Positions 1,565 through 16,647 of a DNA stretch of 64,000 nucleotides are shown piece by piece. Both the position numbers and the translations under genes were made by a program. Source of the stretch: Branchiostoma floridae (Eukaryota > Chordata > Leptocardii > Amphioxiformes > Branchiostomatidae); the NCBI RefSeq assembly GCF_000003815.2, contig NC_049979.1:32134500-32198499 (forward strand), in the 5' to 3' direction. Position 1 is the stretch's first letter; the number at the start of each line of letters is the position of its first letter. The notes below the pieces were generated by a model that was not told the origin of the DNA, did not search any database, and saw nothing but the letters and a program-made list of their open reading frames with translations.

Positions 1565-1785
1565 CCTTATCCAGGGTCCTTATGTAGGGTTCTTATTCAG
1601 GGTCCTTATCCAGGGTCCTTATCCAGGGTCCTTATCCAGGGTTCTTATCCAGGGTCCTTATGTGGGGTTCTTATCCAGGGTCCTTATCCTGGGTCCTTAT
1701 CCTGGGTCCTTATCCAGGGTCCTTATCCAGGGTCCTTATCCAGGGTTCTTATCCAGGGTCCTTATCCAGGGTCCTTATCCAAGGT
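1565..1785. repeat. 13-bp minisatellite, 17 units
   Basis: Tandem array of the unit CCTTATCCAGGGT. It spans 221 bp, exactly 17 units of 13 bp, with a few substitutions (CCAG to GTAG, GTGG, TTCAG or CCTG). Three units make 39 bp, so the array stays open in translation as a 13-residue repeat. That explains the long ORF over it, which is not evidence of a protein. Confidence 0.95.
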
Positions 1786-2079
1786 TAAGCTGATTCTTAT
1801 TCACGCTGTTATCCGGGGGCACTGACAGACACTTCGGGCTAGGGTAGCTTATACAGGAGGTCTTGAGTACATAGCTAAGGGCTTAATATGTCAGAACGGG
1901 GAAGAGTCTTTTATAACTTATATACTGTAGATTGAGGCTAATATTTACCTAATATTTACACATATTTACCGGGTGAATTTTAGGTATTTGTCGGTAAATG
2001 TTGTGTATCACATTTACCAGGAATTTACAAATCCATGGTAAGTATGGTAAATCCAAGATTTCATGCAGTGATGTGTTGG

Positions 2080-2260
2080 CGTTACTTTATGACGTTATAT
2101 AAATTGACGTCAATGATGTCACTATTGGCAACAAAAGTCGTCACAGACATTATCATTCTGATATTTGCACTTGCTGTTATATTTTTGGAGCATGCCTTAA
2201 AGTTTTCTTGAAAGACCTTTTTTTATGGTTACAGCCAATATAGTCAAATTCAAGACATTA
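2080..2260 (+). mobile_element. Degenerate fragment of family C TTAA MITE
   Basis: This matches the interior of the family C element at 18505-19442 (its part around 19085-19250): a run of GACGTCA-type sites, then the segment around ATTGGCAACAAAAGTCGT, then a conserved stretch ending near TTTTCTTGAAAGACC. Both termini are missing, so it is a relic. Confidence 0.7.
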
Positions 2261-3121
2261 TTATTATGTTTTGTTACGTAATGATGAGCTTCAGATTTGT
2301 CACATGTTTAAATATTTTGTCTATATCAATATAGAAAAATATGGTTGTGTAATTCTAGGTTTAATTGCTCGGTTTGGGGCCTCCATGAAGCATTTATTTG
2401 CTCTACAGATTTTTAAAATCTTTTGCACTGAACTTAATTTCGTCTTCGTAAGAGTTTTTCGAACAAACTTATGGTTTCTTCGACTCCATACGACTCTTTG
2501 ACATACCATGTTCAGGCATTCGTAGGTAGCAGGGGCAGGTCATAACATAAGGACAAAAAATAAGTTTTAGATAAGATGGAACAAAAGGTTCTTGTAATTT
2601 TTAAAGCAACTTGCTTACACAGAGAAGATTTTAATTAAATTTATTTATGCATGTACAGATTTACCTTACATAATGAATAACAAAAAGTCTGTAATTCCCG
2701 TGTTTCTGTAAAAACTTTAATACACCCAGTACATAGAGTAGAAAACAGGTGACGCATTAAAAATAACAATAATTAAAATTATATAGGTTTTCTTTAACAA
2801 AAAACGTATATTTTAAAAAATTCCTCAGTCTACAATGATAAATATATATGAGTTAAAGTTATACATCACCATGTACAAATACATACATATGCTAATTTTT
2901 TGCATTCACAAAAAATCAAATGTTCAAAAGAATGAATCCCCGCAAAAGGAATACTCATGAGTATTAAATGTGATCTAAAGACCTCTGTTACTATGTTACT
3001 CACTGTAAGCGAGGCAAGTAGCAATCACGAACCCACCAAATCACCACACAACCAACACGTATACACTCTCACGCTCCTCCGAGTCCAAAAATAGAAAATA
3101 TACTCTAGACCAATTATTTTT
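2261..3121. other. No recognisable gene
   Basis: Apart from AT-rich simple sequence I see nothing here. The two overlapping ORFs near 2271-2509 lie on opposite strands and resemble no family. Confidence 0.5.
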
Positions 3122-3451
3122 TTATTTAATGCAAGTACATATAACCCCCCTCAATGAAAATTCCCCTTCTGCCCGGCGGCGCAAACAAACCCGGGTGGGA
3201 GAGATGGCACAGCTGTCGACGAGGACAACATCTGCTTGACGATATCCAATCACCACAGGCTTCATAATGAAGACCTGGACCATTATTCCGGAGGGCGTAG
3301 GGGTGATGTCTGAAATTATTACATCGAGTATAACAATATCAAACGCGAAAAGAAAGGAACGTGCATCATTTCGCAACTGAGTACAGACGACGTGCCAAAC
3401 CACATACGAATGTTGCAAACGGAAAATAGAGATATTTGAGGGAACACTCAT
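3122..3451 (-). CDS. Unrecognised 109-codon ORF, possible terminal exon
   Basis: An ATG-to-stop ORF in a stretch with more G+C than its surroundings. The stop codon overlaps an AATAAA-like sequence on the minus strand (TTAAATAAAA near 3119-3128). A plausible acceptor (AATAATTTCAG) lies inside the ORF near 3315, so the second half could instead be a last exon of about 63 codons (ITPTPSGIMVQVF... to ...VICTCIK). No domain is recognised. An ORF of this length can occur by chance in sequence of this composition, so I consider it only possible. The family D MITE begins about 200 bp to its right. Confidence 0.2.
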   Translation of the reverse strand: MSVPSNISIFRLQHSYVVWHVVCTQLRNDARSFLFAFDIVILDVIISDITPTPSGIMVQVFIMKPVVIGYRQADVVLVDSCAISPTRVCLRRRAEGEFSLRGVICTCIK

Positions 3452-3661
3452 TGCATAAACCGTTCACAATACTTTGTGGACGGAGGTTACCCTTCAGTCA
3501 CAATCTAATAAGTATCATATCTTTAAACGAAGGGAAAACAAATTTTTTTTTTAAAAGGAGAAATGCATATTATGGAATGTTGTCAAATAAAAACCGTAAG
3601 GGGGTTTTGGGGAACTGAAGTAAAGTGACAGGTAGCAAGAAAGTAAAAATTCTTAAAATGT

Positions 3662-4544
3662 TTAACCCTCAAACCACCGTAGTTTTTTACGACTAATTTT
3701 ACCAAACGGTGTCAAAACTGACTCCATAACGATTGGAAAAATACATATTTTGTGAATATTTTTGTAATATGTATATATGCATAATTTCATCAATCTATGT
3801 GGGAGGTTTTGACATGATTAGGTGTAAATAATGGCAGGTCATTATCACCATTTATGCAAAAGAGCATAAGGACCAAATTTAAAGTGAAGACGGGGGAGGT
3901 TTTATATCACAGAGCTCCTGAATGGCTGAGGCTAGGGCCACAAAACTTAGTATCTTATCAGAAAATGTTGATAGCAATTAGATAAAGTAAGGTCATCCTT
4001 TTTTCATGTTGCCATGGCAACGAAATTCGAACAGGCGTCTTTGGTATAACAATCTAGGTATAAACAATAAAGTTTTAGGGTTTTCTAGGCAAAAACACTT
4101 GTTTATGACATATTATAAAATTCAACGTAAATTTCATGCATCATTTTTCATAGTTTATTTCAATTTGATGACGTCATCGATCATAATATCGCCATATGGC
4201 CTGACAATAACACAACAGTTGTTACCTTTATTTTGTCTTATAAGTACTTCATTGTCAGAAAACAAAGTCATACGATAAGTAGTCAAGGTGTTGGTCTCGA
4301 AATTTTGTTTGAAAAAATAAAAAATCACATTTTCCCCTTGTCAGTTTTGACTCCGCTGGACAATGGATAAACTTCCCAGGATGATTTAATCAACAATGAG
4401 CCTTTCTCGGTAAAACGTATGCAAACTAATAAGACATATATACAAACAAACTATGGGAGGAATTTTTGTTTTCAACTAGAAATGTCACAATGACATACAT
4501 TTATATTCGTCTGTATTGACCCCATACGTTGGTTTAAGGTTTAA
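3662..4544 (+). mobile_element. TTAA MITE, family D (piggyBac-like), worn
   Basis: Starts TTAA-CCCTCAAACCACCGTA and ends near CCCATACGTTGGTTTAAGG-TTTAA, so the ends are inverted repeats flanked by TTAA. Interior features shared with other copies are the exact palindrome GTTGCCATGGCAAC at 4008-4021 and GATGACGTCATC near 4170. The subterminal hairpin has decayed to GTGTCAAAACTGACTCC. No transposase reading frame is present, so it is non-autonomous. Assignment to piggyBac rests on TTAA targets and CCCT-type termini. It lies downstream of the homeobox gene. Confidence 0.8.
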
Positions 4545-4694
4545 AATGATAGCATGTGTTTGAATAATACAACTCGACATTAAAGACCATGCAATGAACA
4601 TACTCCTAGGTTTACTGCCAGTCCTTGTTTACCTTTTGCAACTGAACCTCAACTCATAATGCAAGGTCTACGATCGAGTAATTCATTTTATATC

Positions 4695-4700
4695 TTTATT
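4695..4700 (-). terminator. Candidate poly(A) signal for the homeobox gene
   Basis: TTTATT on the plus strand reads AATAAA on the minus strand, about 590 nt downstream of the homeobox stop codon. If used, the 3' UTR would contain the whole MITE at 4763-5237. Other signals could be used, and transcript data would decide. Confidence 0.25.
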
Positions 4701-4762
4701 GTCTGATAAAAACCCATTATTGAAGTAAGAGGCGAAATGATAGGACGACTGTTATTTACTTA

Positions 4763-5237
4763 TTAACCCTATCTAGTTGGGGGGGGGGAGTTCCAGCACC
4801 AACTTTGACGTCGTAGGACTGTCGAACGACGTGTGCTAGAACTACGAAACTTGGTGACTTTTCCTTAAATTTTGTTGGCATCAATTCCAAGAAAAAAAAA
4901 TGACGTAATTTTATGACGTTATATATGCCTCAGTGTCGTCGACATTGGTAACAAAAGGCTTGGCAGACTTACATACTAATAAGGTAGCGTAAAGCGGAAA
5001 TTCTATATATAGACGGTTTAAGTCAAACATATGATACTATGACGTCATAATCACGTATTACTACGTCATATTACGTCAGAACGCTACCAACATTACAGAA
5101 AACATAAAGCTTTGCTAGTACATTGCCACTTCCAAATTTTTATCATTGTAACCCAAGCCGTTTTGAAATTACGAAGGGACAAAAGTCAAAACAACCCCCC
5201 CCCCCCGGCCCCAGGTATTCCAGTCGAGATTAGTTAA
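4763..5237 (+). mobile_element. TTAA MITE, family B/C, internally shortened
   Basis: Begins TTAA-CCCTATCTAG followed by a G run, and ends in a C run followed by CCAGGTATTCCAGTC and TTAA. It is about half the length of the relative at 29773-30692, so an internal part is lost. It ends only 53 bp from the stop codon of the homeobox gene, which places it in the probable 3' UTR. It has several TGACGTC-type sites. The right terminus has diverged from the GTCTGGATAGGG consensus. Confidence 0.8.
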
Positions 5238-5289
5238 ATCTGGTAGTGTAAGATTTTTTGATATCTTTAAGAAACCTATTTCCGCAAAG

Positions 5290-5390
5290 CTAACTTCGTT
5301 GGTGCTTTGTTATATCCTGAAACCACCTATCCATGAACCATGTCTGGACTTGCGCTGATGTCATCAGCTGGCCATGAGGGTACTCTTCAC
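5290..5390 (-). CDS. Homeobox gene exon 6: homeodomain helix 3 and stop
   Basis: A short terminal exon found by looking for the missing third helix. Acceptor tttgtacag/GTGAAGAG continues the codon left by exon 5 (phase 1) and reads GEEYPHGQLMTSAQVQTWF, then MDRWFQDITKHQRS and TAG. W-F at residues 314-315 aligns with homeodomain 48-49. Position 51 is Asp (GAT) and position 53 is Trp, where nearly all homeodomains have Asn and Arg. There is no C-terminal activation region. Confidence 0.82.
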
Positions 5391-8300
5391 CTGTACAAAC
5401 AAACATAAAATATCTAATATAAATGTCTATCATACATGATAATAAGTTAACTTAATTATTTTAATACCTTGTTACGATTGTTGTTGTGGTTTGAATTATT
5501 CCATAGCAAACATCAAAAGAAACAAACTTCAGTTTTTATGTCACTTTTTATACACGTTCTCCATATTTCTAGGAACACAACTGTGAGTAAAAAGCAATGT
5601 AAGTGATAAACCCCTTGCAACTAGGGCTTTTGTATGATAAATAAGCTGTGAGTTCAAATTTGAAACTGAAATCCCTTATTTACGACACTACATGTAGTAT
5701 CATGTTTATGTAGGCTATTTTAGTTGTTTAAGTAATACTGTTTTGTGTGCTAAACCTTTCCCTTTTTTTGGCCAAACAGTATCGGTAGTAGCAGCTCTTA
5801 TCTGCATAAGAATATATAGCTTTTACAAAGGATATTGGTATTTTTTTTTAAATCCAGCCCTTGCTTAGACAATGATAAAGAACAACATAACACTGAATTC
5901 AAAATAACGGAAAATCTGGTTAATGTGTGTTAGTTGATCTTTCTACCATAAAAACTGTAGTGGTGGATATTGCTCTATGTAATATCCAGCCATCTTGGAA
6001 CTCACTGGGCCACCTTACTTGACAACATTTAATTAAAACTAGTAAAAGTTCAATTTTTTTCAAGCGGACCTGACGGTTAATATGCAAATAACTGTCTGTT
6101 ATGTGTTGTCATTGTTTCTGCCTGCAGCCAAGGTTTAACTTTCCATGTTTTTAATTAGTTTATGTGGTCTGGAGAGTCAATTTATGTGCCAAAGTCCTGT
6201 CAGGGGACAGCAGGGAGCAACTGCACTAGATTATGATTATGGTTGTTCCCTGGACAGTAATCCTCCAGGTTAAGGAAAGTCTTTTAAATAAGTTTGCAAC
6301 ACCATACCTGTTTTTTGTAACTCGTCATTACAGACACGTGCAATCTCCTCTCTCTGGTTCTCGGTGGGGTTTTTATCCATTTGGAAGAACCTCTCCAGTA
6401 TCACTGTAGCTGCTGATGGCCACTTCACCATAAACCTGCGCTGCTTGTGGTCAAGGCCATGAGCAGTGCTATCATTTGTCAAATCGAATGTCCTCTTCGT
6501 GGTACTTTGCTGACTGCAATTGGTATCTAAAAGATACATGTATACAAGCAGCCTTAGGAAATAGTCAACTTTCGTTAAAATTTACAACTCCATTAACATT
6601 TGCCTGCAGGTTACCAGTATTGATACAGTCCTAAATCAAAACCAGTACGTAATCCCACGGTTAAATACAATCAATTGAAATAAGGCAATAATGATACGCT
6701 AGGATGTGTACAGAGTAGTATTGTCATTTTAGACTGTACTTCAGTGATAACTGTCTCTTTCTCGTATTGAGAAATATTATTTTATCCGAATAAAGATAAC
6801 TGAAGTACCTGATATCCCTGACATATTCCTCTTCTGCCTCAGGTACCAAGTATAGAGAGCTCTTTTATTGACCGGTTTCAGCCCTCGACCATGTAAAAGA
6901 AACGCTGACACCACACTCTGGCTGGTGCCGATTTGTTTTGACACGGTGTCTTGACTAATGTGATGAATACGGAGAAAAGTCTTGATTTCGGAATTTAAGT
7001 CCGTCATATCTGTACCAATTTTCCTGGAAAAAAAACATACCATTTGTAAGTCATTGCTTGTTATAGATTTGTGACAATAAATCGGTGTTTTAAAAAAGAA
7101 ATCGGTAACATGATTTGTTTTAAAAAATTTTCACATTGTGCATATTCCTAATGATTTATATACATTGTTATAAGAGATGTTATTTACTTGTTACCTCAAT
7201 ATATTTCATGGCTTATACTTGCACTAGCGTTTGTGTGTTTGTCTATCTGCGTGGGGCTTTTTTGTCAAAACAATCCAAAGAAGATAACTTAAAACAGGAA
7301 GAACGGATTTTCATTTTTTGGGGGCCGTGAAGGTAGCTTAGGCTAAAATTTATATAATGCTATTCATGTTATGCAAATTTTATTGCAAAAGCTATTTTAC
7401 TTGCTCTCTCACAGCCCATGACAAAAGCTATCATCATTCCAAGGACCATGACAATCTGTCAACCCAAATGATTAAACTCCATAGGAATGATGCAACTACA
7501 TAGGCGCGGGAAAATTCCTGTAGAATTCCGGGAATTTTTGCCAATCGGACGTATCATATACTATCAGGCTAGCCCCTGAGATATAAAAACATATATCTAG
7601 CTATAAAAACACTCTCTTACCACCACACATTCACCCATTTCACGGAGGTTGAGTTCTACGAACGCATGTTAAGTAACACATATTTCCATTGATATGTCAC
7701 TTACCAAGAGTACCCAAATCACCTCGACCAATCGCTTGGGGATATTCCCTCCTCTAGAAAATGTGACACTCCTTGACTTTCCAGGGGACATTCCTCTCGG
7801 AAAGAGGACATGCCTCCCTTTATGAGGGACACTCCACGGAAAATAGTATGGTTATCAGGGAAAGTGGATACCCCTCTGACAACCCGGCCGACCTGTGTTA
7901 GAAACTTCTGTCATGTACATGTGTCAGGGAGGGAGGCCTTAAAACTTGATAACCACACGGATATTTAGGCTAAAACTCAATGTTTGTGCTTACCGGACAT
8001 TCGATACGTCGCCATTAAAACACTGATACATATAGAAGGTGGCGTGAGAAAAGAAAATAAGAAAGAAAATAATTACCGCATTAACTCGTCCACATCTGTC
8101 ATTAACTTCTCATCTGGGATTTGCTCCAGAGATGTCTTTACGCAGGGGATGACCTCACCATCTACCTTCTCGGCTTTTTCCTCTTTTGACTCTTTCCCAT
8201 TTTGATGGAGTTCTAGTGGAGTTTCAAAAAGTTTAGAAGATGATAGTCAAACGATTTTTAACCCTATTCAGCGAAAGCCGCCCCGCCGGTTCATGGATAA

Positions 8301-11300
8301 CCCAAAAAGCCCGGTCTGAATAGGGTTAAATTTCTTTTTGAGGTAATTAGACATGCACATTTTTATCTGGTTGTGTATGATGTGTGTATGTTGTTGGCAT
8401 TTTCTATTCGTATGTCGGACACTGTTAGCCCACATAGTAGTCATCTATGATAATAAATCCTATCTAGACCGGGGGGCCCGCCCCAACTTCCATGTCGCAT
8501 ATTGTCTGGACGGCTTAAGCTAGAGCCACCAAACGTCGTTAGCTTTCTTAACTTATCCAGACTGGGCTTTTTGGGCATTCCCTTGACTGGGGTGGGGGGG
8601 GGGGGGTGCTCATTCGGCCCCGACTTCATATTTTCAAACGGCTTACTGTACGATCACCAAATTTGCAGGCAGTGATATACTCATTGAGTTTTATAATTCC
8701 TAATTTTTTTTGTATAATTATGACATATAATTCCCGTAATACCTAAATACTTCAAAGAATAAGTTACCAATAAAGGTTTCTTATAAATATGTAAGTGTTA
8801 TAAGACTTCTGTTGTCTAAACCCGACGCAACGACGTCAAAATGAATTAAAAATGATCATCTTGGATGATCATCCTTAATGATCATCTGGATGATCATCCT
8901 TTATTTTCATAAGATACATTTTTCAACATATAACGCTAGAACCCCGTGAAAACGGATTAAAAACGTTCACATGAATGTGTTCTGTAAGAAAATACCAAGG
9001 CCAGTCTGGATAGGGTTAAATTAATAGATACGGATTGTTTATGTTAGTTTGGTGACATATTTGGCGAAAATCCAAGATGGTGGACTTAACGAACAGATAA
9101 AAGATAACTACATACATAATGTAATGTAGTTTATTATCCCCTAAAGTTCGGATTTACCAGTTATCCATTAAATAGTTTGCAAAAAAATTTTGGTCTTGTA
9201 TCTATATCGTCTTTTGCGGAATAACATAATTAATGATTCAGGCAAAGTATTTATATTGACGTCGTATTTAGTCATAATAGCGTCGAATTTTAAAAGTCTT
9301 TAGATATTATTTACATCATTCTCTGAAAATTTGGTGGTTTATAGTTTGTTTAAGAGTTAAAAGAGTTAGATGGGGCGGCCTCAAAAGCACCCCTCCCCCT
9401 TCCCGGTCAGACGAATGACTAAAAAAGGACGGTCTGAAAAGGGTTAAAGATTTTCCAAAATATTTTTCCCTTTCAACTTAGGAGACTTTTTTTCCGTCAT
9501 GTATATAGACAAGGATGCCTTTATTTAACTTTTAACGACCAATACGATCAATTATAACCCATATCTTCCAATATTCAAAATGAAATAAAGTTAGTGAATG
9601 TTTATATATTTGCAACGTTTCCTTCTTTCGAACATAGAAAATATTTAGTTACAGGAACGTGGCTTGCAGATATGTACCGTCGATATCGATGTTTGTTGTT
9701 ATATGTTGCTGCATGTAGGGCATGATGTGGGAGATGCTGTCCTCTGACAGACCAGTCTGCTGCAGACTCTGATAAACCGACAACTGACGCGTCAGCAGGA
9801 TGAGCTGCTCACGTGTGAATATCGGTGGTTCAGTGACGCACATAGGTAACTTCTTCCTGCAACAACAAAGGGCTTTCTTGAACTAGTTGGACTGTAAAAT
9901 CCACTACAAAATTGGACACCCCCCAATTTTCAACTAAAGAGTACCAGCGTTTGTCATGGAAAGACTGGTGCTGTATAGTCAAAAATTTGTGTGGGTCAAA
10001 TTTTTAAAGTCCAACTAGTTCAATAATAACTTCTACCAATACAGATGGACTTTTAAGTTAACACAGAGCTTTAATGTTCATGTGGTAAAGTCAATGTGTC
10101 ATTGTTAGCTTTATTGTATCATACGACCCATTAGGTCTACAATTTTGGAATATACACATTTGCATTTTCATTAATTAGATTTTTCTCTTAACACCTCATA
10201 TATAGCCAGGCTTTAGCACGATGAGTGTTTCCCGATTCAAGTTTCATTTTTAACCCTCAAACATCTGAGTTGGGTCCATTTAAACCCCTGAAGAAAATTT
10301 TGGCTGCCATTTGAACATTTTTTATCCGAAGAAAAATTTATCCAGTGAATTTGTCACTCAGTATCTTGAAAGTCTATGGAAACTATAAATAAAAGACTTT
10401 GTTTATCCATCTGGAGTCCATGGATATGCAGTTTTAAAAAAAAACAAACTTTTAAAACCCACCCCTTAACTACTAATCGTATAACCACCAAATTTTCATG
10501 ATATGATGATAAATCTTAAACTTGTATCCTCACAACAACTTTTGTGTCATCATCATATCACGTGACTACATTATAACGTCATTTAGCGAAAAAGGGTGGC
10601 CATATTGGATTTTGACCTATGCTGTCATAAAATTTGCATAAATCGTAACTTTTGAATCATTAAAGTTCCATAAGATTTTATAGGATTAATTTGATATTAG
10701 AAAACAAGTGTAGCTTAATGAGAGAACCTTGTTTGTTTAAATCGAAATTGGCAAGTTTTGGAAAAAGTATACCTGTCAGAATTTTGTTGCGTGGCAACAC
10801 AAATAAAATAAACTTACTTTATTGACTTACTTTATTGTACTTTTGGTAGCAACATTTTGTGATAAATTACCAAGTTTAGTAGCTGTAGTGCTTAATGTTC
10901 ATGAGCTATGCGACAGAAAAGTTGCCTAAGGCCTCAAAATTCTCCTCCCTGGTCAGAATACGGTTAGTGCAAAACGTGGTCCTTCTGATCGTTTTCATAA
11001 ATTATGATAATGAGCTGGACTTAGCAACACCTCAACATGTCAAAATATTCCTCTTACATTGCCAAAACAATGTATGTACAATGATCACCGATAAGAAGTA
11101 CAAATGAGATTTTATTGTACGATCATATTGGGGTCATTTAAGTCGCAAAAAAGGTCGGGTGCTTGAGAGTTAAAAGAAAGTATAAAGAAATCAGTTGATT
11201 GAAAATACCAGTAATGGGTAATAACCTTTAATCTGAACATAGACTAGAATTTCTAAGACGTAATGACAAATGTACCCTAAATGACAGCTCTGCTGCATCA

Positions 11301-11415
11301 TGCGGATGGTTTTGAACATGTTGTCCCGCGGCAGGCCGGCCTGCTGAAGTCTCTCACAAATGGACACCAGACGTGTCAGCAGGTTAAACTGCTCCAGGGT
11401 AAACTTTGGCTCCAT
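5290..11415 (-). CDS. HNF-class (HMBOX1/HNF1-like) homeobox protein, 6 exons
   Basis: Predicted nuclear DNA-binding transcription factor of the HNF homeobox class. Joining exons 11276-11415, 9678-9856, 8077-8212, 6809-7023, 6308-6526 and 5290-5390 gives 990 nt, that is 329 residues plus stop, with GT-AG introns and matching phases (2,1,2,1,1). Domains: HNF-p1-like segment 1 (about residues 2-42), HNF-p1-like segment 2 (about 55-98), acidic/lysine-rich linker (108-141), atypical POU domain (about 142-220) and homeodomain (about 253-327). The linker end DELMR resembles VEELMR of HMBOX1. The intron after QKTG in the homeodomain is where I recall HMBOX1 being split. The protein ends just after helix 3. 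Odd points: duplicated dimerisation segment, and W48-F49 kept but N51 replaced by D and R53 by W. The start ATG has an in-frame TAG 6 nt upstream. The amphioxus Ahnfx gene is one candidate identity. The promoter is not identifiable. Confidence 0.85.
6308..6526 (-). CDS. Homeobox gene exon 5: homeodomain helices 1-2
   Basis: Acceptor tatcttttag/ATACC and donor AAAACAG/gtatgg. It encodes a Ser/Thr-rich lead and then the first part of an HNF-class homeodomain (FMVKWPSAATVILERFF, NPTENQREEIARVCNDELQ), to be compared with NQYPDEAKREEIANACNAVI of HMBOX1. The conserved REEIA--CN core is intact. Confidence 0.88.
6809..7023 (-). CDS. Homeobox gene exon 4: atypical POU-specific domain
   Basis: Acceptor ttttttccag/GAAAATT and donor TATCAG/gtactt. 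It encodes most of the POU-type DNA-binding domain: EIKTFLRIHHISQDTVSKQ, then IGTSQSVVSAFLLHG, then KRALYTWYLRQKRN. This matches the HMBOX1/HNF1 layout (EIKAFL, ISQ, TGISQS, KKRAFYRWY), with the recognition-helix SQS and the R-A-L/F-Y-x-W-Y signature kept. Confidence 0.88.
7230..7390 (+). mobile_element. Fragment of element E in intron 3
   Basis: Similar to the interior of the element at 20478-21483: a TGTGTTTGTCTATCTG lead, GGGGC-TTTTTTGTCAAAA, a stretch of ACGGATTTTCAT, then GGTAGCTTAGGC and a TTATGCAAAT end. No termini are present. It lies in the intron between the POU and linker exons. Confidence 0.6.
8077..8212 (-). CDS. Homeobox gene exon 3: charged linker
   Basis: Acceptor actccactag/AACTCC and donor ATGCG/gtaatt. 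It encodes a Lys/Glu-rich linker (NGKESKEEKAEK) and then EQIPDEKLMTDVDELM, leading into the POU-type domain. The acceptor has a weak pyrimidine tract, so the left edge is less sure than the donor. The ORF on the opposite strand here is a shadow. Confidence 0.7.
8258..8329. mobile_element. 72-bp minimal TTAA MITE, family B/C
   Basis: TTAA-CCCTATTCAGCGAAAG ... CCGGTCTGAATAGGG-TTAA: both termini in inverted orientation, both TTAA copies, and only about 30 bp between. This is an extreme internal deletion derivative. It sits 46 bp from the exon 3 acceptor, inside intron 2 of the homeobox gene. Confidence 0.85.
8548..9019 (+). mobile_element. Family B TTAA MITE nested in family C
   Basis: TTAA-CTTATCCAGACTGGGC at the left and CCAGTCTGGATAGGG-TTAA at the right. 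The left third matches the B copy at 12678-13261 (GGCTTTTTGGGC, GCTTACTGTACGATCA). It contains the GATCATC palindrome cluster at 8851-8901. Confidence 0.85.
8851..8901. repeat. Short palindromic repeat GGATGATCATCC
   Basis: The perfect 12-bp palindrome GGATGATCATCC occurs at 8863-8874 and 8888-8899, with further ATGATCATC copies between and before. It is absent from the other B copies, so it arose locally inside this MITE. Confidence 0.85.
9678..9856 (-). CDS. Homeobox gene exon 2: second HNF-p1-like segment
   Basis: Acceptor ttgttgcag/GAAG and donor GACG/gtacat. It encodes residues 47-106, including EPPIFTREQLILLTRQLS, then LQQTGLSEDS and YMQQH. It is a clear paralogue of exon 1 (shared pattern EP-FT-EQ--LLTR-----LQQ-GL--D). 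It has an internal ATG at 9843, so it could also be used as an alternative first exon, but the splice acceptor and matching phase favour inclusion after exon 1. Confidence 0.8.
10250..11173 (+). mobile_element. Family A TTAA MITE in intron 1
   Basis: TTAA-CCCTCAAACATCTGAG at the left and AAGGTCGGGTGCTTGAGAG-TTAA at the right. The left hairpin is decayed (GGGTCCATTTAAACCCC). Inside are CACGTGAC and degenerate GTTGCGTGGCAAC sites at the places where other copies have the RFX-type palindrome. It fills most of intron 1 of the homeobox gene. Confidence 0.85.
11276..11415 (-). CDS. Homeobox gene exon 1: first HNF-p1-like segment
   Basis: Residues 1-46 plus two bases. The core pattern is EPKFTLEQFNLLTRLVSI followed by RLQQAGLPRD and MMQQ, which fits the short helical N-terminal dimerisation segment of HNF1 and HMBOX1 (HMBOX1 has FTIEQ..LL.RLRRTGMT). 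The ATG is the only sensible start because a TAG lies in frame just upstream. Donor TTTAGG/gtacat is phase 2. Confidence 0.8.
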
Positions 11416-11915
11416 TTGCTATATTCTTCCGTCGGGAATCTTATTCCTAGGGATAAATTAAGACATTTAAACATCTGACTATATCTGCATCCCAATTTCT
11501 AAACATATTTATTGCAACCAAAACAAGGTTATATTTTCTGTTTTGCCACGATAGATTGGCTGGGTATAAGTCGCTGTAAGTCCGGTAATGCTTTACATGA
11601 TTAGTTATTTATGTTGCGAATAATGAGTTTTTTTGCATAAAGAAAATGGAAATATAGTTGCAGTCCACAATCATTTTTAAACATGTGGCATATGTACCTG
11701 AGAATGATGGAATCATCATTAGAGATCCGTTATTCCAATGTAAAAGCCGTTTGCAACATTTATGAAAACTAAAAAAAACTACGGTATCATAGAAATGTAA
11801 ATGTATCAATACATGATATGATACTACCCCCATCCCCATCTCCCCTGCCTTCCCCTGAAGTGTGTTTATTTTGCCATTATTTTTCTGAATGGTTAATGGA
11901 TTTTAGTTTTTTTAA
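11416..11915. other. Upstream region of the homeobox gene
   Basis: It holds the 5' flank of the minus-strand homeobox gene. I see no clear TATA box, initiator or further coding exon. The minus ORF 11609-11839 has no recognisable feature. Confidence 0.4.
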
Positions 11916-12677
11916 TTAACCCTCAAACCCCCGAGTGGGGTCCATTTGGACCCCAGGCGTAAATTTTGAAGTACCATTTGAACATTTTTTATCTGAACAA
12001 AAATTCCAAACGGACCCCTGCAAAAAAGTGCAGCTTTTGAAACAAACTTTTGGGTCTAACTCCCCAAATACTTATTGTATCACCACCAAACTTTTAGAAG
12101 ATAACAAACATGTAAAACTAAATGCTCATAAAAACTTCTGTGTCATCACCATATAATATGACGACATTATGACGTCATTTAGCTAATAAGGACGGCCATC
12201 TTGGATTTTGACTAATGAATTCATGAAATTAGCATAAATTATAAATTTTGAATCATGAAAATAGCATTGAATTTCATAGAATTTTATTGTTGTAAGAAAA
12301 CAAGCATTGTTTACCAAGAAAACCTTGTTTAAATCGAAATTGGCAAATTTTGGCAAAAATATGCCTGTCATAATTCCGTTGCCATGGCAACCCCAAAAAA
12401 TGAAAAATTTACTTTATTGACTAAAAAATTTTGCTAACAATATTTTGCGATATATTACCAAGTTTCGTAGCCTTAGCACTAGCCGTTCATGAGTTATGCG
12501 ACATAAAGGCTGCTGAGGGCCTCAAAATTCCCTTCTCTGGTCAGAATAGGTTTAGTGCAAAAGATGGTCCTTTCTTTTCTTTTGCATAAATTATGATAAT
12601 GAGGTGGAATTAGCAACACCTTAACATGTCGAAATATTTCTCTTATACTAACGAAGCAATGTATGTGGAATACTAAC
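11916..12677 (+). mobile_element. Family A TTAA MITE, right end missing
   Basis: TTAA-CCCTCAAACCCCCGAG followed by the hairpin GGGGTCC-ATTT-GGACCCC at 11937-11954. The exact palindrome GTTGCCATGGCAAC is at 12378-12391, and CCATCTTGGATTTT (reverse of the AAGATGG motif) is near 12190. The right terminus is cut where a family B element starts. Confidence 0.85.
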
Positions 12678-13261
12678 TTAACCCTATCCAGACTAGGCTT
12701 TTTGGGCCTTCCCTGGCCTGGGGAGGGGGGTCAGACCCCCTTCGTATTTTCAAAACTGCTTACTGTACGATCATCAAATTTGCACTTTTAAAATTTTTTG
12801 TATCATTATGACGTAATATGATGTAATTAGGACGTCATTAATTGCTATTTTTGGCTAAGACGGGGAATTCCCATAATACCTAGATATCTCAATCAAAACG
12901 TTACCAATAATGGTTTCTTATTAATATTTAAGTGTTATTAGACTTCTGTTCACATGAATGTTTTCTGTAAGAAAATACCACGCAGTGATGAAATCTGAGT
13001 TGTTATACCGTTTAAATCTTAAAATCCCATTGTTTCAACCAAAGTTAGTGATTTTTGTAAAATTTGCCTTTCAGAAACCCGTTCCCATGGCATCACGAAA
13101 AATCATAAACTTACCCAATTTGTTTTGAAATGTTGCCAGCAATATTTTAGGAAAACTCACGAAGTTTGGATGTTCTAGCACAAGCCGTCTGGGATATAAA
13201 GGAGGTCAAAGTTGTCGCGGGCACGTTTAGCCCCCCCCCCCCCCAGTCTGGATAGGGTTAA
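12678..13261 (+). mobile_element. Family B TTAA MITE, complete
   Basis: TTAA-CCCTATCCAGACTAGGC to CCAGTCTGGATAGGG-TTAA, 584 bp, with inverted termini and both TTAA copies. A G run near the left end and a C run near the right end are typical of B and C. The RFX-like site is mutated (GTTCCCATGGCATC). Confidence 0.88.
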
Positions 13262-13909
13262 CGGGGGGTGGCTTTGAGGCCTGCGGCAACTTTGATGTCC
13301 AATAACGCCAGAACGGCTTATGCTAGAGCCACGAAATTTAATGAGTTGTCCTAAAATATTGTTGCAAACAATTTAACAAACTTTGACAAATTTTTCATGT
13401 TTTCTTGTTGCCATGGCAACCGTTTGTTGACAGGCAGTTTTGCCAAAAATCACTTTTTTTGGTTCTAGCAATATATTTGTCACATTTATTTGCTTTTTAC
13501 TGCTATTTGGTTATATAAATAAAATCTTATATCATTGAGCATATCTTTCATAATTATATATGCATAAATTATGCTTATTTGATGACGTCATCAGCCCAAT
13601 ATCCAAGATGGCGGACCGTATGGCCAGATCAAGAATAACAAGCTAATTATCCCTTAAAATTTGTAACTACCTGGTGTTTTTTCATCAGAAATCTGCCCAG
13701 AAATTTAGCCTATTTCCGTTGCCCTTTGTGATTATGACGTCAATGATTTTGCTATTGGCAACGCAAGTCGTAATAAACATTATTATTCTGTTATCTGCAC
13801 TTGAAGTTTTATGAGAATACCCTTTTTTCATGCGTCCGGCCAGTTTAATTAAATTGATGACGACACAAATACGTCATTTTACGTCAACCTAACGTTAAAC
13901 GTCTTATTT
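13262..13909 (+). mobile_element. Family C TTAA MITE, both ends missing
   Basis: It starts directly at the right TTAA of the previous B element and aligns with family C from about 18518 onward. The exact GTTGCCATGGCAAC is at 13407-13420, GATGACGTCATC near 13581, and CCAAGATGGCGGACC near 13602. Its right end is replaced by satellite. Confidence 0.8.
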
Positions 13910-14037
13910 TTCACAGACACACAGGTTCCGAGAGAAATTCAGAGGATTTTTTCCAAACCTTACACTTCCGACACGGCTATTACAAACACACAGGTTCCGA
14001 GAAAAAAAAGAGGATTTTCTCCAAAAATTATACTTAA
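13910..14037 (+). repeat. Satellite outpost, 1.5 monomers
   Basis: A short block of the 78-bp satellite (CAGACACACAGGTTCCGAG, then CGGCTATTACAAACACACAG), separated from the main array by about 3.9 kb of LINE and MITE sequence. It shows the array once reached this far left, or that a piece moved here. Confidence 0.85.
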
Positions 14038-14954
14038 CAAACTACAGCCCTGTGTTGCTGACATGCGTAGCCTGCAAATTGATGGAACATATAGTGGTTG
14101 CTTACACCATGCAACATTTTAAATCTAACGACATTTTGAATGACAACCAACATGGTTTTAGCAGAGGTCGCTCCTGTGAAACACAACTCCTCGACTTTGT
14201 TGAAGAGCTGACAACAAATCTAGCGAGTGGCAAACAAACTGACATCATGATCATGGCGAAAGCGTTTGACCGGGTAAATCATAGTCTTCTTGTACATAAA
14301 CTCCAACGCTATGGTATTCATGGCCCCACCCTAGCGTGGATAGACTACTTCTTGAAAAGACCGACGACAAGCAGTTGTGGTTGATGGTCATTTTTCCTCA
14401 TACACTAGTGTAAAGTCAGGAGCCCCCCAGGGCTCCGTTCTGGGGCCCTGTCATTTTCTGGCCTACATTAACGATCTGCACGACAAATTGGAGGCAATGT
14501 CTAGGCTCTTAGCAGACGATACAGCTGTATATAAAAGTAGTGTCAGAGCCAGCGTAACAGGCTCATTTACAACAAGACCTACGTCATCTTGAGCAATGGG
14601 AAGAAAGCTGGGATATGAAGTTCCATCCCGCAAAATGTGTTTATCTGCCGGTGACTAGGAGCAGGTGGGTCCTGACCCATCACTACACTCTGCATGGCCA
14701 CGAACTTGATTGTGTAACCTCGGCCAAGTACCTGGGTTCAACTATGAGCAGGGACGGGAGCTGGGACACCCACATAAACAACACCGTAAACAAGGCTAAC
14801 CAAGTCTTAGGTTTTCTGAGGAGAAATCTCAAGGTCAGTTCAAAAAACATTAAGGCCAAGGCTTACAAAGCTTTTATGAGACCACTCTTGGATTATGCTG
14901 CAACGGTTTGGGACCCGTATACCTAGATGAACACGAGCAAAATAGAAGCAGTGT
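14038..14954 (+). pseudogene. LINE 1, 5' part: Jockey/CR1-type reverse transcriptase, broken
   Basis: A 5'-truncated non-LTR retrotransposon beginning inside the reverse transcriptase at NYSPVLLTC. Visible motifs: HGFSRGRSCETQLL, KAFDRVNHSLLVHKLQRYGI, then after a frameshift near 14370 SGAPQGSVLGP and LLADDTAVY (first residue of the FADD box changed), then after a second shift near 14565 MKFHPAKC, SAKYLGSTMS and MRPLLDYAATVWDPYT. A stop follows WDPYT. Clearly dead. It continues at 16648 beyond an inserted LINE. Confidence 0.88.
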
Positions 14955-16647
14955 CACTCTGCCATGGTATTTTCCTCCGTCCTGGAAATGTGCAGATGTT
15001 GTCCCTATTTTTGGAAAAAAGGAGACCCACAAGAGGTTTCCAACTACCGCCCTGTTTCTTTACTTCCACCGCTTTCCAAAATTCTTGAACAAATTGTATA
15101 TAAACACCATTATAACCACTTACTATCTCAAAACTTGTTATTTCCATTTCAGTCGGGTTTTATCCGAGGTGACTCCACTGTTTGTCAACTCGTTTGTATA
15201 ACCCACAAAATACTGGAAGCTCTTTATGCAAACAAAGAAGTCCGAGCTGTTTATCTTGATTTCTCTCGTGCTTTCGATAAAGTGTGGCATTCAGGTCTAT
15301 TATTTAAACTACGTAGAAACAGGGTGGAAGGGTCACCTTTGAATTGGTTCCACAGTTATCTCCATGGCATGGTGCAACGTGTTGTTGTTGATGGTCAATG
15401 TTCTGATTGGCTAAATGTTAGCGCAGGTGTGCCTTAGGGTTCTGTATTAGGTCCCTTGCTTTTTCTCATTTATATTAACGCGGTCGGAAGACATGTCAAC
15501 CCAACCCTTTCTCTTTGCGGATGACAGTTCTCTGATTGGTATTGTCTAAAACCATATTCTCACATCTCTGAGACTTAACTCCGATCTCAAAAAAATTCTA
15601 TCCTGGACCACAAAAATCCATCCAAATCTATAGAAGTTTGTTTTTCAAGGAAACGTACCCCTCCCATCCATTCGCCCCTTTTTCTTGGTAACACCAGTAT
15701 TCAATCAGTGAAAGACCATAAACACAGTGGAGTAACGTTAACGTCCTCCATGTCATAGACAACCCATATTTCTCAAATGATTGCGAAGGTTTCGAAGAAG
15801 GTATCTGTATTTAACAGTTTGACCAAATTTGGTGAGTTTTCCTAAAATATTGTTGGCAACAATTTTACGAAGTTCGACCTTCGTTGTAATATGCCGATGT
15901 TGTATGGCATAGCTGTTCAGTTTCTGATTCTCAACTTATTGAGAGGATACAATACGAATGCTCCCTTACGGTATCTGGTGCCGTGAGGGGGTCTTCGTAT
16001 TCTTCTCTTCTTCATGAACTTGGCTGGGAAAAGTTAACTGATCGACGCCATGTTCATTCTCTTGTTCTATTCCATAAAATTGTTAATGGCCAAACACGGA
16101 AGTATTTGACCGATTTATTACCACCAGAGATTTCTGCAACAACGTCATACAATATTCGCAGCAAACGCAATCTCCAGTGTAATACAACTTGTTTTCAACA
16201 ATCTTTTTTACCGCACTAAACTCAGTTATGGAACTTTCTTGATTCTAGTGTCCGTTTGTTGAGCGCTGCTCGATTCAAAAGGTATTTGGTAAAATCTGCT
16301 CACCCTGTTGCCGTACCATATTTTAATTAAAAGTTTATCTGCTACTTAAAGGATCGGCTTTACTGACATCTGATATAAATTCCGAAATTCTCTCCATAAC
16401 TCAATCATACTTATCCGAAACAAAACGATTTTAATCTTGTTTTTTGACTATCCTTATCATTTACTATTGGTAATATAAATTTATCCGTCCGTTTCTTTTT
16501 AGCATTAGGCGTTCCCGTACCCGTTTCATCTTTTTTGTCCTATGTTGTGTTGTTATTTTGTCTAGTGGTGTCTTTAATATAAGCCTGTGTGCTTGAGTGG
16601 GGGCACCACTATGTTTTGTACTGTATTAATGTTGCAATAAAAAAAAA
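14955..16647 (+). pseudogene. LINE 2 inserted into LINE 1, broken
   Basis: A second, different non-LTR element. 5' truncated, it starts at PPSWKCADVVPIF and reads SNYRPVSLLPPLSKILEQIV, YLDFSRAFDKVWHSGLLFKL and NVSAGVP-stop-GSVLGPLLFLIYIN, with a FADDSSL box after a frameshift. The C-terminal region (LIERIQYECSLTVSGAVRGS, ELGWEKLTDRRHVHSLVLFH, LTDLLPPEISATTSYNIRS) is at about 15940-16300. The 3' end has AATAAA and an A run at 16637-16647, as expected of target-primed insertion. Stops and shifts make it inactive. Confidence 0.88.
15822..15876 (+). mobile_element. 55-bp MITE fragment inside LINE 2
   Basis: CCAAATTTGGTGAGTTTTCC ... ATATTGTTGGCAACAATTTT matches the interior of family C and B elements (compare 13341-13380 and 18590-18640). 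It has no termini. It replaces or interrupts the LINE coding region just before LIERIQYE. Confidence 0.6.

Follow-up and report, generated by a model that had tools for sequence, protein, structure and literature searches.

A putative Hmbox-like homeobox gene family with two dimerisation-type segments in Branchiostoma floridae

Pairing of HNF-class proteins relies on a single short helical hairpin, mutations of which matter in human diabetes genes. In a stretch of 64,000 nucleotides of the Branchiostoma floridae genome (contig NC_049979.1, here called C1, positions 32134500-32198499; hereafter the window), a homeobox gene was found in which two consecutive exons each encode a segment of this type. 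Do both segments end up in one protein, as the initial annotation of the window had proposed, or are the two exons alternative starts? We examined this gene, here called locus W, together with its relatives in the same genome. Both segments very probably lie in one protein somewhere in the family of copies described below. As an account of the whole, we favour with moderate confidence a reading in which locus W belongs to an Hmbox-like, lineage-specific family of HNF-class homeobox genes. A doubled hairpin, combined with a homeodomain that lacks the near-invariant Asn51, would amount to a natural experiment: is the doubled hairpin a self-pairing lock or a bridge between two partners?

The two-segment gene model of locus W

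The gene lies on the minus strand of the window, from 11415 to 5290, and consists of six exons that encode 329 codons and a stop with consistent phases. AG acceptors were found at exons 2-6 and GT donors at exons 1-5, and the phases of the junctions, from exon 1 to exon 6, are 2, 1, 2, 1 and 1. Exon 1 (11276..11415) begins with the ATG at 11415, encodes dimerisation segment 1 (MEPKFTLEQFNLLTRLVSICERLQQAGLPRDNMFKTIRMMQQ) and ends at the donor GG/GTACAT in phase 2. Exon 2 (9678..9856; 179 bases) encodes a ten-residue in-frame linker, KKLPMCVTEP, which leads into segment 2. The splice phases unite both segments, as had been claimed: exon 2 is entered in phase 2, the exit phase of exon 1, and continues in phase 1 into exon 3 at 8212. 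Exon 3 (8077..8212; phase 1 to 2) carries an acidic linker, the end of which (...DVDELMR) runs into the POU-like domain, whereas the POU-like (HNF-type) domain itself is encoded by exon 4 (6809..7023; phase 2 to 1). Homeodomain helices 1-2 and the beginning of a long loop are found in exon 5 (6308..6526; phase 1 to 1), and homeodomain helix 3 (VQTWFMDRWFQDI) in exon 6 (5290..5390), together with the stop codon. When compared with Pfam, the spliced protein matched HNF-1_N (expectation value, E, 1.4e-17) and Homeodomain (E 2.4e-6), both above the curated cut-off. Both domains also matched HNF1A/HNF1B structures, and HMBOX1 was likewise among the solved relatives.

The two segments of locus W, compared with each other, gave a local BLOSUM62 score of 83, a value reached by none of 2000 shuffles (shuffle maximum 42). 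The exons were thus correctly described as encoding paralogous segments, and a chance resemblance between them was ruled out. Within loci I and G, two further copies of the gene, the corresponding scores were 80 and 89, with 0/2000 shuffles as good. Segments 1 and 2 also matched the single segment of an Hmbox-like gene on contig C2 (scores of 116 and 102, respectively). From there, the similarity extended from the C2 segment to that of Hmbox (115), and from Hmbox to HNF1 (60), again with none of 2000 shuffles as good in any of these comparisons. The HNF1 segment of this genome, in turn, matched the solved HNF1A dimerisation domain 1f93 (E 3.6e-5). Because of this chain, from the segments to the C2 gene, Hmbox and HNF1, we counted the N-terminal segment as an HNF-class dimerisation segment.

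The initial annotation had also suggested a structure prediction for the N-terminal part, and one was made for exon 2. An AlphaFold2 monomer model, computed from a two-row alignment, showed two helices (15-33 and 38-54) that form a helix-turn-helix hairpin with the turn at TGLS; the mean predicted local distance difference test score (pLDDT) was 81. This predicted hairpin has the shape expected of a dimerisation hairpin of the HNF1 kind. The single segment that characterises the HNF class was not what we observed in this family, as two segment exons were present in all ten of its loci. The statement that HNF1 and HMBOX1 have only one segment agreed with this genome's own HNF1 and Hmbox genes.

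Ten loci on C1: splicing, selection and origin

Searches of the genome (513,431,437 bases) with exon 1 and with exon 2 agreed on ten loci on C1 and one on C2, and also gave weak matches of each exon to the other. These searches score the best candidates only, so that locus counts are lower bounds. Overall, the genome shows ten double-segment loci on C1 between 30.3 and 34.2 Mb: locus W and nine others, named A to I. Every exon 1 on C1 has a same-strand exon 2 about 0.6 to 4.1 kb downstream, and this order was kept in 10/10 loci; the C2 locus has one segment, which was matched by the exon-1 and exon-2 queries alike. Exon 1 is open in eight of the ten loci (frameshifted in C and D) and exon 2 in nine (frameshifted in F). 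Both segment exons are open in seven loci (W, A, B, E, G, H and I), and all six exons in W, A, G and I. Locus B had been considered a broken gene, but what interrupts its exon 4 is a run of Ns that marks an assembly gap; the idea that locus E has no start was also rejected, as its upstream ATG serves.

Loci W, A, B, C and D are near copies, with a protein identity of 93% between W and A and of 96% between W and C. Loci E, G, H and I are distant from W (55-64% identical; synonymous divergence, dS, of 0.68-0.87). Identical residues numbered 188 out of 329 between W and G and 182 out of 328 between W and I, and copies differ at up to 45% of residues. In loci E (C1:32.637 Mb) and H (C1:30.344 Mb), exons 1-4 are in frame, with a diverged exon 3, and no homeodomain exon was found after exon 4 in the following 14 kb or so of E, which include a 1.9-kb gap, or in about 13 kb of H. 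Moreover, a genome search with exon 5 of locus G identified eight places on C1 and two on C2, none of them at E or H. These two loci seem to be without a homeodomain.

The exon-1 donor, the exon-2 acceptor and the exon-2 donor are kept in all ten loci. Exon 2 measures 176, 179 or 182 bases, a length that is always 2 mod 3, with the exception of the frameshifted locus F. Because of this length, exon 1 is usable in frame only via exon 2; in locus W, exon 1 joined straight to exon 3 gives a frameshift and then a stop. As read from these sequences, the messenger RNA would join exons 1 and 2. It had also been claimed that exon 2 has its own ATG, which is true of the locus W copy (9841..9843, minus strand), where this in-frame codon is a candidate alternative start. 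Across the family, an in-frame ATG was found at the same place in six of the ten loci and elsewhere in G, and was absent in F, H and I. The alternative-start idea therefore does not hold as a family-wide feature, but such a start is possible for W, in which the ATG is present, and for its near copies, two of which (C and D) carry a broken exon 1.

To describe selection, we used the ratio of nonsynonymous to synonymous substitution (dN/dS) from Nei-Gojobori counts, with one-sided Fisher tests that treat sites as independent and are thus approximate. Frameshifted or gapped exons (exon 1 of C and D, exons 2 and 3 of F, exon 4 of B) were left out of the sets, nor did the sets contain exon 3 of E and H, which is diverged. 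Over all shared open exons, dN/dS was 0.39 for W-G (p 3e-10), 0.43 for W-I (p 9e-9) and 0.36 for G-I (p 3e-9), and W-A gave 0.43 (p 0.014; 329 codons). The lowest ratio of the pairs compared, 0.21 (p 1e-11; exons 1, 2 and 4), was that of E-H, despite the fact that no homeodomain exon was seen in these loci. Pooled over exons, these ratios clearly point to purifying selection.

Taken by itself, exon 2 reached p < 0.05 in W-G, W-I, W-E, W-H, A-G, A-I, G-I and E-H, but not in W-A, and its segment portion alone did so in three out of seven pairs. Exon 1 reached p < 0.05 in W-G (0.027), W-E (0.002), W-H (0.009), E-H (7e-5) and A-G. Exons 4 and 5 appeared near neutral between W and A (dN/dS near 0.9). 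Exon 5 was constrained in W-G and W-I (p 0.00056 and 0.00021, respectively), and constraint was less clear for the short exon 6 (p 0.10 and 0.046, respectively).

Alignment A1 comprised 18 rows. The segment tree was short and unrooted, with 15 rows (seven segment-1, six segment-2 and two single-segment sequences; B, C and D not included). In this tree, segment-1 and segment-2 sequences formed separate clades (support 95/92 and 100/98), with the single segments of Hmbox and the C2 gene outside both, which argues for one exon duplication before the gene was amplified. Both segments share a seven-residue extension with the segment of the C2 gene, which Hmbox does not have. From these sequence features, the probable order of events is that the segment was already lengthened in an Hmbox-like gene, that the first coding exon of this gene was then duplicated and that the gene was amplified last. 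The segment exon of the C2 gene has acceptor-like sequence ahead of its ATG, and could for that reason be copied together with an acceptor. From the tree and the exon anatomy, we infer that the first coding exon would have been duplicated with its splice acceptor and that the old start-codon region would have become an in-frame linker before the gene was amplified; the KLPM motif in exon 2 may be a fossil start. The family would thus offer a case of in-frame duplication of a first coding exon in which a former start-codon region turned into a linker.

Third helix, relatives and proposed function

Asn51 is the main base-contacting residue of homeodomains. In a survey of 346 homeodomains, this residue was reported as invariant and position 53 as almost invariably Arg (PMC2211742). 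The third helix reads MDRW in all eight double-segment loci in which exon 6 was found, a count that rests on searches within the retrieved locus stretches, whereas Hmbox, the C2 gene and HNF1 have NRR there. Alignment of WFMDRW of locus W to WFANRR places Asp at position 51 and Trp at position 53, so that locus W lacks the canonical Asn51 and Arg53 that the C2 genes and HNF1 keep. Human SEBOX also has Trp at 53 and a residue other than Asn at 51; however, that residue is Lys, and SEBOX is described as a single PRD-class gene which the authors thought possibly non-functional (PMC2211742), whereas Asp51/Trp53 is here common to diverged copies. Because MDRW is common to diverged copies and loci E and H were found without a homeodomain exon, these sequences suggest that the family is independent of canonical homeodomain-DNA contact.

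Extra residues between helices 2 and 3 are reported as a mark of the HNF class (PMC2211742), and this feature was present: the long loop of locus W aligned without gaps to the HMBOX1 structures 2cuf and 4j19. The homeodomain alone was also closest to these two structures (E 1.4e-8, versus 1.5e-5 for HNF1). A tree of the POU-like domain and homeodomain had long branches and did not resolve the relations among Hmbox, its C2 neighbour, HNF1 and the double-segment family. The double-segment gene is at most a paralogous offshoot of Hmbox, because the canonical HMBOX-type third helix and the short segment belong to another gene, at C2:30.4196 Mb.

A search with the HNF-1_N profile added HNF1 on C11, a divergent gene on C5 and Hmbox (C2:30.4196 Mb), which lies next to the single-segment gene (C2:30.4310 Mb). 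Hmbox (HMBOX1) resembles the family in its order of segment, linker, POU-like domain and homeodomain and in the gap-free loop between helices 2 and 3, but differs by its one complete segment, which is seven residues shorter, and by its canonical WFANRR third helix. The Hmbox-like gene at C2:30.4310 Mb shares the seven-residue extension and, among the single segments compared, has the top score against both segments; it differs by having one segment exon, a long linker and a WFINRR third helix with Asn51 and Arg53. HNF1 (C11:19.885-19.897 Mb; HNF1A/B in people) likewise has an N-terminal dimerisation segment, a POU-like domain and an atypical homeodomain, but only one segment was seen, the third helix is canonical and direct segment similarity is at the level of chance. 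The divergent HNF-class gene at C5:21.6986 Mb has a POU-like domain and a FWYQNRRRK third helix; a dimerisation segment was not identified in it.

The Hmbox gene also contains four partial repeats of the second half of its segment, inside a minisatellite. In both Hmbox and its C2 neighbour, minisatellites (L039:3826-4339 and 6346-7096; L030:6701-6992) repeat the 3' end of an exon several times within the following intron, and those of the C2 neighbour include the splice donor.

Among open-access titles and abstracts on amphioxus HNF-class genes, Hmbox or homeobox expansion, we did not recognise the double-segment family, and Ahnfx gave no match. This is the name in HomeoDB of an amphioxus-specific HNF-class gene which, we presume, may be one of these loci, but it could not be matched to any of them. 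One of the ten loci may already have a name in the literature. HomeoDB2 gives four HNF-class genes for B. floridae (PMC5322547, Table 2), whereas this genome has ten double-segment loci besides HNF1, Hmbox, the C2 neighbour and the divergent C5 gene. The family has more loci here than those four, and its homeodomains might be discarded by standard filters.

In the mechanism that we propose, each protein would have two helical segments for pairing, separated by about 15 residues, as well as a POU-like domain and a homeodomain with neither Asn51 nor Arg53 in its third helix. The two segments might bind to one another or to two separate partners, and pairing and the POU-like domain would be the main means by which the protein acts. 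It would then be a poor canonical reader of DNA that modulates or titrates Hmbox-like proteins with the same type of segment, the choice of partner being the least certain step. Given a weakened homeodomain, modulation of single-segment relatives would be the likeliest outcome, with the C2 Hmbox-like protein as the most plausible target because its segment is the nearest. HNF1 proteins are described as forming homo- and heterodimers through an N-terminal four-helix bundle (PMC8921476, PMC8905088), and a truncation of HNF1A as antagonising HNF1B via the dimerisation domain (PMC8905088). By analogy, a double-segment protein might fold back on itself or bind two partners. More speculatively, the family might consist of natural pairing hubs or antagonists, with a homeodomain disabled (Asp51/Trp53) or lost (E and H), selected for pairing with Hmbox-like proteins over DNA reading; we hold this as a doubtful extension of the account.

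Competing explanations and surrounding sequence

Several results weigh against a functional two-segment protein of the HNF class, and they bear on different parts of this reading. Compared directly with the HNF1 segment, segments 1 and 2 scored at the level of chance (214 and 216 out of 2000 shuffles reached the score, respectively), and a search of the PDB with the segment profile met no HNF1 dimerisation structure, the matches being designed helical repeats and unrelated chains. Neither segment exon alone reached Pfam HNF-1_N: exon 1 had one weak, unrelated match and exon 2 had none. These findings would be expected if the segments were an unrelated helical hairpin that came to occupy the same place by chance, instead of relatives of HNF-p1. 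We regard this as very improbable in view of the chain of matches through the C2 segment and Hmbox to HNF1, none of which was equalled by shuffled sequences, the same position ahead of the POU-like domain and the predicted helix-turn-helix with its turn at TGLS. Moreover, exon 1 alone showed no significant constraint in W-I (p 0.30), G-I (0.31), A-I (0.076) and W-A (0.51). Its lower constraint than exon 2 in some pairs would suit alternative first coding exons: a protein with one segment, begun at the exon-2 ATG, would be made from a promoter in intron 1, and exon 1 would be rarely used or a relic. The ATG ahead of segment 2, shared by six loci and reading through the rest of the window gene, and loci C and D, with their frameshifted exon 1 and open exon 2, agree with this arrangement. 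Nevertheless, it is quite unlikely: exon 2 of F, H and I offers no ATG in frame before segment 2, exon 1 is in frame only through exon 2, and exon 1 is constrained in W-E, W-H, W-G and E-H. The codons ahead of the exon-2 segment also mostly keep K-L-P...T, the proportion of synonymous differences (pS) exceeding that of nonsynonymous ones (pN) in six out of seven pairs, significantly in two, and when loci G and I were compared with the window, no blastn hit (over 150 bases, E 1e-20) linked one intron 1 with the other.

The doubts about the window copy itself concern its start. In the nine other loci, an in-frame ATG is kept 7 or 8 codons ahead of an MEP, MEQ or TEP motif; in locus W, a relic of this upstream start (11416..11445, minus strand) has ATT for ATG, followed by an in-frame TAG, for which reason the protein must start at 11415. 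This loss may weaken expression of locus W and is the chief ground for doubting the window copy. The family is also partly decaying, given the frameshifts in exon 1 or 2 of three of the ten loci (C, D and F), although small frameshifts in copies may be sequence errors. Even if older members work, locus W might thus be a recent, decaying duplicate, open by chance and without a normal start or function. The stop in place of the upstream start, the membership of W in the recent set of near copies (W, A, B, C and D), two of which, C and D, already have a frameshifted exon 1, and the near-neutral exons 4 and 5 between W and A all speak for decay; we nevertheless find it somewhat unlikely, as none of the six exons or splice sites is damaged, a second ATG is still present in frame and W-A shows significant constraint, though the A branch may supply that signal. 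Some near-identical copies could also be two alleles to which the assembly gave separate places. Alleles are disfavoured as the whole answer because there are five near copies, more than two alleles can explain, because W and A are on one contig at a distance of 1.36 Mb and in opposite orientation, and because E, G, H and I have diverged far from W; pairing the near copies as alleles would still leave at least eight distinct loci. With regard to the homeodomain, our reading of a protein that mainly pairs has to be set against one in which the homeodomain reads DNA with altered specificity, Asp51/Trp53 being a new recognition mode and the second segment only strengthening an ordinary homodimer. 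The presence of MDRW in every copy with exon 6 and the constraint on exon 5, and less clearly on exon 6, in W-G and W-I are consistent with such a mode, but the reported invariance of Asn51 among 346 homeodomains (PMC2211742) and the apparent lack of homeodomain exons in E and H make it unlikely.

Locus W lies in a stretch in common with locus A (1565..16328, given without strand); over 1573-16328, its pieces are 92-98% identical, with the exception of a minisatellite at the low end. In locus A (C1:30.78 Mb), an insertion of about 8 kb of different sequence interrupts this stretch near window position 14000, and beyond 1565, at the low end, two further short matches of 82 and 37 bases were found. 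The minisatellite (1565-1785) has a 13-base unit in 17 copies. Fragments of reverse-transcriptase-like frames, judged by eye to be of the long interspersed nuclear element (LINE) type, were observed just upstream of the locus W gene on the plus strand (13899-16219), and this stretch is also present in the region common to locus A. Finally, a repeat unit about 77 bases long, typically with ACAGACACGGC...ACAAACACACAGG, was observed in dispersed, degenerate arrays between 19439 and 50799 of the window.

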